DNA from: Aidingimonas halophila | GTDB lineage: Bacteria; Pseudomonadota; Gammaproteobacteria; Pseudomonadales; Halomonadaceae | NCBI RefSeq assembly: GCF_900106955.1 | Contig: NZ_FNNI01000001.1 | Span: 124,001-188,000 of the forward strand | Direction: 5' to 3' | DNA: 64,000 nucleotides | Part shown: in pieces, positions 18,332-24,298 of the stretch | How positions within the stretch are numbered: position 1 is the first letter of the stretch | Layout: each line of letters begins with the position of its first letter | The notes under the pieces: model-generated | What the model was told of the DNA's origin: nothing | Databases searched by the model: none | Seen by the model: the letters and a program-made list of their open reading frames with translations, nothing else | Position numbers and translations under genes: made by a program

Positions 18332-19297
18332 TTATCGGCAGGATTTCCAGAAATCCCGAATGGAGGCGATGCCTTGCGCACCAACGCCACGCGCATGATC
18401 GGCATCATGACGCGTCATCCCACCCAGGGCGAATACCGGCATCGCGGCACGCTCAACCAGTTGCTGGAAATCATGCCACCCCATGGGATAGACATCCGGA
18501 TGGGTCGGCGTAGTTCGTAACGGCGAGAGGGTGACAAAATCACAGCCGATACGCCCCGCCTGTTCCAGTTGCGCCTGATCATGCGTCGATGCGGCAAGCC
18601 ATTTGTCTTCGGGGACAGGGCGCCGCTCCAATGACATCAACTGCTCGCTGGTCAAATGAATTCCGTCAGCATCGACCTCGTCGAGCAGCCTGGGATCGCC
18701 ATTGAGCAGCAACCGAGCCTCGTAACGACGGCATAGTTCCAGTGCCTTTTTCGCTCTCGATACGAACGCATCATTCTCCAGTGTCTTGGCACGCAGTTGA
18801 ACCAACCGCACCGCATCCTCACTCAAGGCACGTTCGAGCTTGGACATGAAAGTGGCATCGTCCGCTTCTTCAGCCGTAATCAGATACTCGGTGGGCAACA
18901 TCACGGCACGCAGGATCGGCATATTTGCCGCCGGGAAGGGATAATTGAAAAGCTCATCCAGCCTGACCCAGCGAACGGCTTGCCCCTCGCGGCCAAACGG
19001 CTCGCCGGCATACTCCCGGACCTGCCAGACATCCATCAGAACATGCTTGTCGGGGTATTCGTGGTGCACCCGGATCAGTGGCTGGGCACGTTGTATCTCG
19101 ACGCCCAACTCTTCATGGAGTTCGCGTTTCAACGCTTCGAATCCCGTTTCGTAGGGCGCCAGCTTGCCTCCGGGAAATTCCCACAGACCACCCTGATCAA
19201 CAGTCGATGGTCGACGGGCAATCAATACTTGTCGACCGTCGCGACTGATCATGGCGGCCGCCGCCACATGCACCCTTCTCTTTACCATTGTCTCCAT
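18332..19297 (-). CDS. Nudix hydrolase fused to a TenI/ThiE-like barrel domain
   Basis: 321 residues in two domains. Residues about 5-130 are a MutT-type Nudix domain with a perfect Nudix box (G at GKLAPYE, then RELHEELGV) and WEFPGGKL. Such enzymes remove 8-oxo-dGTP. Residues about 150-320 resemble a thiamine-phosphate-synthase/TenI barrel (LVQLRAKT, ADGIHLTSEQL, ASTH, ALGGM), but the GPxxxTxTK-like phosphate motif is replaced by LSPLRTTPTHPD, so TMP synthase activity is doubtful. Pseudomonas has the same fusion downstream of secA and argJ. ATG 19297 has AAAGGG about 4 nt upstream; ATG 19288 is possible. Confidence 0.88.
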   Translation of the reverse strand: METMVKRRVHVAAAAMISRDGRQVLIARRPSTVDQGGLWEFPGGKLAPYETGFEALKRELHEELGVEIQRAQPLIRVHHEYPDKHVLMDVWQVREYAGEPFGREGQAVRWVRLDELFNYPFPAANMPILRAVMLPTEYLITAEEADDATFMSKLERALSEDAVRLVQLRAKTLENDAFVSRAKKALELCRRYEARLLLNGDPRLLDEVDADGIHLTSEQLMSLERRPVPEDKWLAASTHDQAQLEQAGRIGCDFVTLSPLRTTPTHPDVYPMGWHDFQQLVERAAMPVFALGGMTRHDADHARGVGAQGIASIRDFWKSCR

Positions 19298-19335
19298 TGA
19301 ACCCTTTCCCACATGATACCGACTATTCAATGCGA

Positions 19336-20559
19336 TCAACTGCGATAGTCAGCGTTGATCGATACATATTCGTGAGACAGATCCGACGTCCATACTGTCG
19401 TACCGGCATCACCACGCCCCAGCCGAATGCGGATGGTGATTTCCTCCTCGGCCATCACGGCGCTTCCAGCCTCTTCCGTATAGCCGGGGGCTCGCCCTCC
19501 CTTTTCAACCAACCGGACATCGCCAAGATCGATACGCACAAGATCGACATCGAATGCTTCGACCGGGGCACGACCAACAGCGGCCAGAATGCGCCCCCAG
19601 TTGGCATCACAAGCGTAAAGCGCCGTCTTGACCAACGGAGAATGCGCAACGGTGAAGGCCACATCCCGCGCTTCCTGTTCCGTCCGCGCTTCGCTGACAT
19701 CCAGCGTGACGAATTTTGTCGCGCCTTCCGCATCCCGGATGATCTGCTGAGCCAGAGATATCAACACCTCATCGAGCGCGTTGCGAAAACGCTGGATCGC
19801 AGCATCGCCATCAATGCGGGCACCACGCCCCGTTGCCACGAGCAGGCAGGCATCGTTCGTGGAAGTATCACTGTCCACCGTGATGCTGTTGAACGAACGC
19901 TGAACACCCGAGCCAAGCCACTCGGATAACCGAGGTTGCTCGATGCAGGCATCCGTCGTGACAAACGCCAGCATGGTCGCCATGTCGGGCTGAATCATGC
20001 CGGACCCCTTGGCAATCCCATTGAGGGTGACCGGCTGACCATCGATCTCGATACTGACCGTCACACCCTTGGGCCGCGTATCGGTAGTCAAGATCCCGTC
20101 GGCAGCTTGCTGCCATCCGTTATCATCCAGAGCCCCGACCGCTTCCGGCAGTGCAGCCAGCAAGCGGTCCATCGGCAACGGTTCACCGATGACTCCGGTC
20201 GAAAACGGCAGTACCATTGCCGGATCGACTTCTCCGAGGCGCGCCAGTTCCTGACAACAGGATTCCGCATCACGTCTACCGGCGATACCAGTCCCTGCAT
20301 TGGCATTGCCGGTATTGATCAACAAGTATCGCGGTGACGTGCCTCGGGTTTGGCAAATCGCCATATGATCCTTGGCGACATGCACCGGCGCCGCACAGAA
20401 CGCATTACGCGTGAACGTACCGGCAACACTGGCGTCCGGCGCGATCTCGACCACCACCAGATCACGGCGGTTGGCCTGTTTGATTCCCGCCATAGCCGTA
20501 CCCAACCGGATGCCGTCGATAGCCGGCATAGCTGGAAAAGGCACAGTTCCCACCGCCAT
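19336..20559 (-). CDS. argJ: Bifunctional ornithine acetyltransferase / N-acetylglutamate synthase
   Basis: 407 residues. The precursor is self-cleaved at the conserved KGSGMIQPDMATMLAF block, making Thr195 the N-terminal nucleophile of the beta chain. Other landmarks are NTGNANAGTG (oxyanion region) and the C-terminal SHEYVSINADYRS. ArgJ transfers the acetyl group from N-acetylornithine to glutamate in the cyclic arginine pathway; whether it also uses acetyl-CoA cannot be judged here. It starts 12 bp after the secA stop and is probably cotranscribed with it, as in Pseudomonas. Confidence 0.96.
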   Translation of the reverse strand: MAVGTVPFPAMPAIDGIRLGTAMAGIKQANRRDLVVVEIAPDASVAGTFTRNAFCAAPVHVAKDHMAICQTRGTSPRYLLINTGNANAGTGIAGRRDAESCCQELARLGEVDPAMVLPFSTGVIGEPLPMDRLLAALPEAVGALDDNGWQQAADGILTTDTRPKGVTVSIEIDGQPVTLNGIAKGSGMIQPDMATMLAFVTTDACIEQPRLSEWLGSGVQRSFNSITVDSDTSTNDACLLVATGRGARIDGDAAIQRFRNALDEVLISLAQQIIRDAEGATKFVTLDVSEARTEQEARDVAFTVAHSPLVKTALYACDANWGRILAAVGRAPVEAFDVDLVRIDLGDVRLVEKGGRAPGYTEEAGSAVMAEEEITIRIRLGRGDAGTTVWTSDLSHEYVSINADYRS

Positions 20560-20571
20560 GATGTCATCTCC

Positions 20572-23304
20572 CTAGCTCAATTTGCCACAACACTGCTTGT
20601 ATTTCTTGCCAGACCCACAAGTGCAGGGGTCGTTACGACCGATCTTGGGGCCCTCACGACGCAATGGACGCCCATCAACTCCCGGCGGCAGAATCCGCTT
20701 GTCATCTTCATTGGATTCAGTCGACGGCTGTTCATCATGTCTGGATGCCGCCGTCGCTTTTTCTCGCTCGAGCGATTCGCGTCGTTGACGCTCGAGTTCC
20801 TCGACTTCCTCGCGGCGACGTACCTGCACATGGCTGAGAATTCGTGTCACATCGGATTTGATATTCACCAGCAGTTGCTGGAAGAGTTCGAATGCTTCCC
20901 GCTTGTACTCTTGCTTGGGATTTTTCTGAGCGTAACCGCGCAGATGAATACCGCGCCGCAAATGATCCATGGATTGCAGATGCTCTTTCCAGCGTGTATC
21001 GAGTACCTGAAGCATGACTTGCTTTTCGAAGCGGCGCATCAATTCCTCGCCGACAGCCTCGACCTTCGCGGCGTAAGCTTCACGATGCTGGGTCTGCAAA
21101 CGCTCACGGAGCTGCTCTTCGTGGAAGTGCTCATCCTCCTCGGCCCACTGCACGACAGGAACATCCAGATTGAATTCGGATTTCAGATGATCCTGCAGAC
21201 CTCTGAGATCCCATAATTCCGGCAAGCTTTGCGGCGGCACGAAACTACTGATCGCCTCGTCGAGGACCTCCTCACGTATTCCCATGACGTTAGCGGAGAC
21301 ATCATCAGCCGCTAGAATTTCATTGCGTTGTTCATAGATGACACGACGCTGGTCATTGGCTACGTCATCGTATTCGAGCAACTGTTTACGAATATCGAAG
21401 TTCCGACCTTCCACCTTTTTCTGCGCACGCTCGACAGCATTGGACACCATCCTGTGCTCGATAGCCTCACCGCGCTCGAGGCCTAACGCTCCCATCATTT
21501 TCTGAACGCGCTCGGACCCGAACAAGCGCATCAGGTTATCTTCAAGCGAAAGGAAGAAACGGGTCGAGCCCGGGTCTCCCTGACGTCCAGCGCGGCCTCG
21601 CAATTGATTATCGATCCGTCGTGACTCATGCCGCTCGGAGCCGACCACGTACAACCCACCCGCACGAAGCACCGCGTCATGACGTTCTTGCCATGCCACC
21701 TTGATGGCATCGATCTGCTCTTGATCGGGGTCGTCGAGTTTGGCGACCTCGGCTTCCCAGTTGCCCCCCAGGACAATATCCGTTCCGCGACCCGCCATGT
21801 TGGTCGCGATGGTAATTGCACCTGGACGTCCCGCCTGCGCAATGACTTCGGCTTCCTGCTGATGCTGCTTGGCATTAAGTACATTGAAGCTCATGCCCTC
21901 GCGCTTCATCATGTCCGCCAGGCGTTCGGAGCTCTCGATGGAAGCCGTACCGACCAACACCGGACGCCCTGACTCAGTCTGCGACTTCACATCGGCAATA
22001 ATCGCCTCGAATTTCTCTTCCTCGCTGAGATAGACCAAGTCATTCAGGTCATCACGAATCATCGGCTTGTTGGTAGGAATCACCATGACGTCAAGGCCAT
22101 AAATCTGACGAAATTCGAAGGCCTCGGTATCCGCCGTGCCGGTCATCCCGGCCAATTTCTCATACAAGCGGAAATAATTCTGGAATGTGGTCGAGGCCAA
22201 CGTCTGGCTCTCACGTTGCACGGTCACGCCTTCCTTGGCTTCTACGGCCTGGTGCAACCCTTCGGACCAGCGGCGCCCCGGCATCGTACGCCCGGTATGC
22301 TCGTCGACGATCACGACCTGATCGTCATTGACGATGTAATCCACATCACGTTGATAAAGGTGACGGGCACGCAGTGCCGAATGCATATGCTGCAGCAGGT
22401 TGAGGTTCTTGGCCGCATACAGCGAGTCCTCCTCGGCCAAAAGCCCTTGTTCCCGCATCAGTGACTCGACCTTGTTATGCCCTTGTTCGGTCAACTCCAC
22501 TTGCTTGTGCTTTTCATCAAGCGTGAAGTCTCCCGATGTCGGGTCCTCCGGATCACTGCACTGCTGGACGTCTTTCGCCAGGCGGTCAATTACCTTGTAT
22601 AGCTCGGTATTTTCCTCGACCGGCCCGGAGATGATCAGTGGGGTGCGCGCCTCATCGATCAGTATCGAATCAACCTCATCGACAATGGCGTAATGCAATT
22701 CCCGCTGGACCTTGTCTTCCAGTGAAAACGCCATATTGTCGCGCAGATAATCGAACCCGAACTCATTATTGGTGCCATAAGTGATGTCGCACGCATAGGC
22801 GGCACGCTTCTGTGCCGAGGTTTGTCCCGAGTAGATCGTACCCACGCTCAAACCGAGCAGTTCATAAAGCGGCCGCATCCACTCGGCATCGCGGCTTGCC
22901 AGGTAATCATTGACGGTCACGACATGCACGCCCTTGCCCGAGAGCGCATTCAGATAGACGGCAAGCGTCGCAACCAGCGTCTTGCCTTCACCGGTCTTCA
23001 TCTCGGCAATTCGACCGCGATGGAGTGCCAGCCCGCCTATCAACTGCACATCGAAGTGACGCATGCCCATAGCGCGTTTACTGGCTTCGCGAACAGTCGC
23101 AAACGCCTCAGGCAACAGTTTATCCAAGCTCTCGCCACCCGCGAGACGTTCGCGAAACACGGCGGTTTGCGCCGTCAACGCTTCATCATCGAGAGCTTCC
23201 ATCTGGGTTTCCAGAGCGTTGACCTGAGATACTATCTTTCCCAGACGCTTCACTTCACGGTCATTTTTCGTACCGACGACTTTACGTAGCAACGTATTCA
23301 GCAT
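20572..23304 (-). CDS. secA: Preprotein translocase ATPase SecA
   Basis: 910 residues (E. coli 901). The motor drives secretory proteins through SecYEG. Features in order are the N-terminal [17 protein letters not shown], Walker [29 protein letters not shown], the preprotein cross-linking domain, [13 protein letters not shown] and [17 protein letters not shown] of the second nucleotide domain, and the C-terminal zinc-binding SEC-C motif [14 protein letters not shown]. The frame is open to ATG 23334, but family sequence begins at ATG 23304, which has only a weak ribosome site (GGA). A SecM-like ORF and a hairpin lie immediately upstream, hinting at translational control. Confidence 0.98.
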
Positions 23305-23326
23305 GGAGTGTCCAATTTTGCCAAAG

Positions 23327-23391: not shown

Positions 23392-23718
23392 TCAGGATAT
23401 CGAAACGCATGTATCGGTCGGTACGGGGGGACCTCGGCACGCCAGGACATCGTAAGCCGCTGCGGGAAGGCGCTTTACTAACCGCCAGGGAACGAGCTTG
23501 ATACGCACAGGGGTAGGCATGGGCACCCGCGGATAACAACGCCGACGATGTGCGATGTTGCGGCTACGAGCTCGAATGACACTGGGCGTCAACAAGCAGA
23601 TCTGTACCACACGCTCGACCGATCTTCCCGGTTCGGCATTCAGCAATGTGGCTGGCAGTAAGCACCCTACCAACAGCCCTGCCAGCCACCAGCGAGTAAT
23701 CACCCCACGTGGCGACAC
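23392..23718 (-). CDS. Putative SecM-like secretion monitor upstream of secA
   Basis: A short ORF of 108 residues from GTG 23718 (129 from ATG 23781). It begins MSPRGVITRWWLAGLLVGCLLPATLLNAEP: an Arg-containing start, a hydrophobic core and a small-residue cleavage region, i.e. a Sec signal peptide. By memory E. coli SecM starts MSGILTRW and has ALSNAAEP around its cleavage site, a notable match in layout. The rest is basic with no known domain. Ten residues from the end is RGPP (in LACRGPPVPTD), resembling the RAGP of SecM and the RAPP/RAPG cores of other arrest peptides. Neither start has a well-placed ribosome site. It lies directly upstream of secA. A spurious ORF remains possible. Confidence 0.5.
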   Translation of the reverse strand: MSPRGVITRWWLAGLLVGCLLPATLLNAEPGRSVERVVQICLLTPSVIRARSRNIAHRRRCYPRVPMPTPVRIKLVPWRLVKRLPAAAYDVLACRGPPVPTDTCVSIS

Positions 23719-23774
23719 TCCTGCAGCAGCCTGTGCAGTATCGTCTGTCGCGGTCCTGGTATGGTACATAACTG

Positions 23775-23803
23775 TTGACATATTCCCGTTCGTGCTATGG
23801 TAT
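23775..23803 (+). promoter_or_regulatory. Probable dciA promoter
   Basis: A perfect TTGACA (23775-23780), 17-nt spacer and TGGTAT (23798-23803) face dciA, with transcription expected from about 23809. It overlaps the far 5' end of the divergent SecM-like ORF. Confidence 0.5.
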
Positions 23804-23836
23804 CAGCCAGTTTCACCGGCCTTGCAGAACAAGCTA

Positions 23837-24298
23837 ATGAGTATAAAGGTTAAGCGTTTCCGCGCCCAGTCCATCAACTCGCTACTTAGCGGTAGCAGCG
23901 AGCTTGGCCATCTGATACGAGCCGCTTCATTGCTCGAACGGGCGCAAGGTGAATTGCGTCGCGCCTTGCCAGGCGACATGCAGGAGCATGTGTATGTCGG
24001 AGGCTATCACCAAGGAAAACTGACCATTATCACGGACAAGGCCGCCTGGCTGACATGGCTTCGATTCCAGCAATCTCATTTGCTCGGCATACTCCATCGC
24101 TTGCCGGAATTGGAGAGTGTGACGGGACTCGCGTTCAAGGTTCGTCCGGTTCACCCGCCCAAGGTGCCTCAACGTCAACATCGCAGACTCCCCAGCAAGG
24201 CAGCCGATGAATTATCGAGTTGCGCAGCTGACACTGACAATCCCCGCTTGAAAAAGGCGCTTGAGCGCTTGGCATCACATGCCGAAAGACAGGAATAA
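23837..24298 (+). CDS. dciA: DUF721 protein, probable replicative helicase loader DciA
   Basis: 153 residues. The N-terminal half (about 15-105) has the DUF721 pattern: a helical LIRAASLLERAQGELRRALP followed by strands with HVYVGGYHQGKLTIITDKAAWLTWLRFQQSHLL, which corresponds to the KH-like domain of DciA. The C-terminal third is basic and probably disordered. DciA is known to load DnaB in bacteria without DnaC. Its position between lpxC and secA fits other gammaproteobacteria. The frame is open upstream to 23555, but the ATG at 23837 starts the family sequence and lies after the promoter. Confidence 0.78.
   Translation: MSIKVKRFRAQSINSLLSGSSELGHLIRAASLLERAQGELRRALPGDMQEHVYVGGYHQGKLTIITDKAAWLTWLRFQQSHLLGILHRLPELESVTGLAFKVRPVHPPKVPQRQHRRLPSKAADELSSCAADTDNPRLKKALERLASHAERQE

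Follow-up and report, generated by a model that had tools for sequence, protein, structure and literature searches.

A small upstream open reading frame (uORF) that directly precedes secA on the minus strand of the 64,000-nucleotide stretch of Aidingimonas halophila DNA analysed here (the window) very probably encodes a ribosome-stalling secretion monitor, which would raise the production of SecA when protein export is slow. The basis for this reading is the frame itself, its signal, its motif, the spacing between them, the pattern of selection and a place beside secA that is kept family-wide, together with folding over the secA start that is seen at the family level only. The stalling of the window's own sequence, the force-dependent release of that stall and the induction of secA we infer. 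What is new is the presence of the uORF in every Halomonadaceae genome examined, a corrected gene model, a selection profile in which constraint ends sharply, and two conserved cysteines. The significance of the system is that an RGPP-type secretion monitor, apparently unrelated to SecM, is fixed across a whole bacterial family rather than patchy in its distribution. Its 89 natural sequences also show at a glance which positions of an arrest peptide are fixed and which are free. The uORF family is also suited to tests of how an RGPP stall is released by export in halophiles, organisms that serve as industrial hosts.

The initial annotation of this DNA had described a same-strand ORF just ahead of secA that has a Sec-type signal, with a CRGPP motif 10 residues before its stop, and both features are present in the sequence, where the frame has its stop at 23392 and a C-terminal end reading DVLACRGPPVPTDTCVSIS. 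The start had to be revised. Comparison with Aidingimonas lacisalsi, whose uORF protein is 63% identical to that of the window, reveals a one-base indel immediately 5' of ATG 23769 ('CAACAGT-TATG'), and the homologous ATG is the start in nearly all relatives, in which it is preceded by a conserved GGAG/GGGAG sequence and a GACAGC block. The uORF therefore starts at ATG 23769, and its 125 codons specify a protein of 125 aa. A longer reading of 129 residues from ATG 23781 was rejected, being out of frame in A. lacisalsi, and the GTG at 23718 that had been taken as the start of a 108-codon frame ('MSPRG...') is ruled out by the indel and by the homologous ATG of the relatives. Residue numbers follow the 129-residue reading (P0001) unless stated, so that R116, P118 and P119 are R112, P114 and P115 of the 125-aa protein.

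The true start of secA, as aligned across relatives, is at 23304 (MLNTLLRK...), which leaves a gap of 87 nt behind the uORF stop. The gene order is lpxC - uORF - secA, with a divergent dciA, whose start is placed by the conserved CTTTATACTCAT, between lpxC and the uORF. The divergent start codons of dciA and the uORF lie 67 nt apart (23769-23837), and their promoters must therefore overlap or lie within genes. A consensus scan found no sigma-70 promoter for the uORF; a TA[GCT]CAT sequence conserved about 25 nt upstream of the uORF ATG is a candidate promoter element. A plus-strand ORF at 23555-24298 that spans the uORF was discarded, since the overlap represents an artefactual N-terminal extension of dciA. 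The coordinates of the features are collected in Table 1. Elsewhere in the window, a minus-strand ORF at 18332-19339 seems to join a Nudix (MutT) domain to a ThiE-like domain of the thiamine-phosphate synthase type.

Table 1. Features of the uORF-secA locus, in window coordinates.
Feature	Position	Strand	Basis or remark
uORF for a probable 125-aa secretion-monitor arrest peptide, ATG to stop	23392..23769	-	open frame, relatives, purifying selection
Putative N-terminal export signal: Arg-containing n-region and hydrophobic core WWLAGLLVGCLLPATLL	23635..23769	-	invariant residues, synonymous bias
Codon for Cys40, within the lipobox-like L-V-G-C of the hydrophobic core	23662..23664	-	invariant (28 representatives)
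D111-V112-L113 codons (GATGTCCTG), before the arrest core	23443..23451	-	conserved; could pair with the secA Shine-Dalgarno
Predicted arrest core R116-G-P118-P119, CGA GGT CCC CCC	23425..23436	-	R, P, P 88/88; G 82, A 6
Unconstrained tail VPTDTCVSIS, 10 residues	23395..23424	-	synonymous fraction 0.30 vs 0.28 without selection
secA Shine-Dalgarno UUGGAC	23310..23315	-	5 nt before ATG 23304
secA, presumed regulated gene	20572..23304	-	ORF list; start aligned across relatives
Divergent dciA, neighbour, outside the device	23837..24298	+	PF05258 match E=2e-8

Conservation was assessed in the secA leaders of 89 Halomonadaceae genomes, from 88 of which the uORF was extracted automatically. The frame is open before secA in 89/89, at a distance of 24-188 nt with the exception of one in-frame fusion, and the motif R-[GA]-P-P occurs in 88/88 extracted uORFs (82 RGPP, 6 RAPP). 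Its arginine is found at positions 103-123 (at 109 in six members). The spacer from signal to motif has 69-76 residues across the 88 uORFs although its sequence drifts, and the tail past the motif has 2-15, or 56 in one genome in which the frame runs into secA. Among 28 diverse representatives the invariant residues are W31, L33, A34, L37, C40, L41 and P43 together with R116, P118 and P119. Since frame and motif are kept in 89/89, with no non-synonymous differences at R, P and P in 198 pairs, the uORF is conserved far beyond chance. In one leader (L011; G070 contig C1, about 3,081,500-3,082,100) the uORF stop is lost, giving an in-frame uORF-secA fusion that is either natural or an assembly error.

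Outside the family the picture is one of absence: a family profile matched 12/12 Halomonadaceae genomes and 0/283 genomes from other families of the order, and in 83 secA leaders from those families no uORF combined a hydrophobic N-terminus with a RAPP-like C-terminus. Within the A. halophila genome, no similar uORFs were found before secDF and yidC. Outside the window (L281:854-2818, contig C17) this genome has a second SecA-like gene, for a protein of 654 aa, whose neighbours are an HlyD-like ORF and an M50-type peptidase/biotinyl-lipoyl ORF; a RAPP-type uORF was not seen at that locus.

The pattern of selection was measured as the synonymous share of single-base codon changes between closely related pairs, for which the neutral expectation is 28%. 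The signal core and residues 108-119 each have a share of 89%, and residues 52-78 one of 86%; for the spacer it is 69%, and for the tail only 30%. At R, G/A, P and P there are zero non-synonymous differences in the 198 pairs, compared with 140 at the very next position, and because the motif residues are fixed while their codons vary the invariance belongs to the peptide and not to the mRNA. Directly before the core, D is conserved in 83/88, V in 74/88 and L in 73/88. On the model of the RQH family, for which toeprinting is reported in PMC10987492, a stalled ribosome is predicted to have P118 in its P site and to be decoding P119 in its A site, and constraint stops at this second Pro, the codon predicted to be in the A site. 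Strong constraint up to this residue and neutrality right after it is the pattern expected of an arrest peptide, and this invariance of the peptide, with its abrupt end, is regarded as the strongest evidence for one short of experiment. The alignment across Halomonadaceae that the initial annotation had called for thus returned a conserved signal, a bias towards synonymous substitution and an invariant R-[GA]-P-P close to the C-terminus, and these bear out its proposal of a secretion-monitor arrest peptide, a function that is very likely right.

The putative export signal is conserved in the family as [RQ]WWLAGLLVGCLLPAGL, with an R-rich n-region ahead of the WWLAGLLVGCLLPAGL core. A possible signal-peptidase site follows A49 in the window's protein, and a small-x-small site is located downstream of the core in 83/88 uORFs. 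Around C40 the core reads L-V-[GS]-C in nearly all members, which is lipobox-like. A lipoprotein signal at Cys40 is unsupported as it stands, with the PROSITE-type lipoprotein rule satisfied in only 11/88, and processing by signal peptidase I, or slow processing, is favoured from these sequences. A second cysteine, Cys62 (23598-23596, minus strand), is kept in at least 90% of members, and a RAESRR stretch is also conserved. We know of no role for conserved cysteines such as Cys40 and Cys62 in arrest peptides.

Peptides of this general kind have been described before. Fujiwara et al. (2024) defined the RQH family from 30,175 genomes (PMC10987492, to whose main text the statements here refer). 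In all RQH members the stall is reported there to come when the third residue of the motif occupies the P site. The R109GPP representative of the group uA_RQH_Pseudomonadales stalls ribosomes of both E. coli and B. subtilis in vitro, with a fraction arrested of >0.9. RGPP is also the most robust arrest core in several contexts (PMC12992588). Four characters of the RQH family recur in the uORF, which is a small frame of unknown function on the same strand directly upstream of secA (89/89), with an N-terminal signal, a RAPP-like motif near the C-terminus (88/88) and a spacer of 69-76 residues where >30 are expected. The Halomonadaceae are among the families that GTDB moves into Pseudomonadales, merging most of Oceanospirillales (PMC7498684), and because order, motif and exclusivity agree we infer from the main text of PMC10987492 that the uORF very probably belongs to uA_RQH_Pseudomonadales. 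The earlier view that no description existed for this lineage was too strong, given this group with its RGPP at 109 (PMC10987492, main text) and an order that includes Halomonadaceae (PMC7498684). The group and the uORF have in common a place upstream of secA, an N-terminal signal, RGPP near the C-terminus and, very probably, the GTDB order. However, uA_RQH_Pseudomonadales is grouped by order and motif only, in a main text that does not mention Halomonadaceae by name (PMC10987492), whereas the Halomonadaceae uORFs constitute a true homology family, with conserved signal and cysteines, found in every member examined. ApdA/ApdP (RAPP) and ApcA (RAPG) likewise have a core of R-A/G-P-P type and stall at its third residue, but they belong to Actinobacteriota and Alphaproteobacteria and precede secDF or yidC, and the likeness to them is by description only.

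What, then, is the relationship of the uORF to SecM? The SecM family (PF06558) of Enterobacterales and Pasteurellaceae resembles it in its place between lpxC and secA, in its Sec signal, and in an arrest motif that contains R and P, is placed at the C-terminal end and has a short tail behind it. The uORF could accordingly be envisaged as a true but highly diverged SecM orthologue, in the same place ever since Enterobacterales and Halomonadaceae shared an ancestor and working in the same way, a view that agrees with a neighbourhood like lpxC-secM-secA of E. coli, with the same architecture and with a spacer of ~70 residues like that of the short SecM class (PMC10987492, main text). Against this, no homology was detected: PF06558 matched neither the uORF family nor anything in the A. 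halophila genome, an hhalign profile comparison with E. coli SecM gave a probability of 0.0, and Pfam/NCBIfam searches of the members yielded no family beyond chance single matches. The SecM motif FxxxxWIxxxxGIRAGP is absent, the uORF motif being DVLxRRGPP, with RGPP in place of RAGP and no conserved F, WI or GI. The SecM-like letters that had been pointed out ('G-x-I-T-R-W', 'NAEP') are indeed present, but are common only to A. lacisalsi and not to the family. Common descent is also unsupported because dciA intervenes next to lpxC and because the 83 leaders from the order's other families are without a comparable uORF. Orthology with SecM is improbable, and of the 'divergent or convergent' origin proposed in the initial annotation it is the convergent one that fits better, a divergent SecM being unsupported. 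By analogy, the uORF very likely works like SecM but is not SecM.

The conservation beyond the motif, which includes the two cysteines and the RAESRR stretch, could be taken to reflect a small exported protein that has its own periplasmic job, executed by Cys40, Cys62 and an Arg-rich body, and that sits before secA by chance, with RGPP merely causing a pause. Such a protein would not be expected to lose all constraint abruptly at the second Pro, to hold its spacer to a fixed length while leaving the sequence free, or always to adjoin secA, and RGPP-type motifs are depleted from proteomes (PMC12992588); this explanation is very improbable. Another alternative would be a leader without arrest, where ordinary translation opens the secA start by translational coupling. 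The short distance to secA and the folding of uORF codons over the Shine-Dalgarno (SD) would suit coupling, which nevertheless leaves an invariant R-x-P-P and a conserved signal with free codon choice unexplained and is scarcely credible.

With the uORF as a secretion monitor, its product would be a substrate of the Sec pathway that monitors that same pathway. The N-terminal signal would deliver the nascent chain to the Sec machinery as translation arrives at R-G-P-P, where P118 in the P site and the Pro-tRNA for P119 in the A site would block peptide-bond formation, thereby stalling the ribosome. Active SecA/SecYEG would pull on the chain and release the stall, and slow export would lengthen it. 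As with SecM, the stalled ribosome would cover or melt mRNA that is otherwise folded over the secA ribosome-binding site, and translation of secA would increase.

Such an mRNA switch is likely at the family level, as judged from predicted folding. The secA SD is less exposed than under synonymous shuffles of the uORF codons in 65/87 members, with 32 of the 87 in the lowest tenth and 6 in the highest, the RNA p-values being naive in that the relatedness of the genomes is ignored. Removal of the ribosome-covered stretch leaves the SD more exposed in 77/87, a gain that is partly trivial because removing sequence removes pairing partners. Several genera show complementarity between the D-V-L codons (GATGTCCTG) and the SD region (TTCAGGACATC), in duplexes that reach -19 kcal/mol. 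No DVL:SD helix common to the entire family was found: the pairing is strong in some genera (e.g. L028, L036, L046, L053) and poor elsewhere, and at the level of single bases the D codon and the SD region covary weakly. Within the window the SD has an exposure of 0.54 when free versus 0.56 with the covered stretch removed, and the RNA fold z-score is -0.7. Only a 5-bp core (UGUCC/GGACA) joins the D-V-L codons to the SD region, and the SD lies within a local UGGA/UCCA hairpin common to A. lacisalsi. With so small an effect here, the switch is likely for the family but no more than possible for the window. The only match to a known RNA element at the locus was a sub-threshold Rfam match inside secA. 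A more elaborate arrangement, in which, in several genera, the D-V-L codons double as an anti-Shine-Dalgarno of secA while the two cysteines add a second input to stall release, such as signal-peptidase II processing or the periplasmic redox state, is unlikely. The predicted D-V-L:SD pairing is near 1.0 in L028, L036, L045, L046 and L053, and their near-perfect complementarity makes these five well suited to testing whether the codons have a double role.
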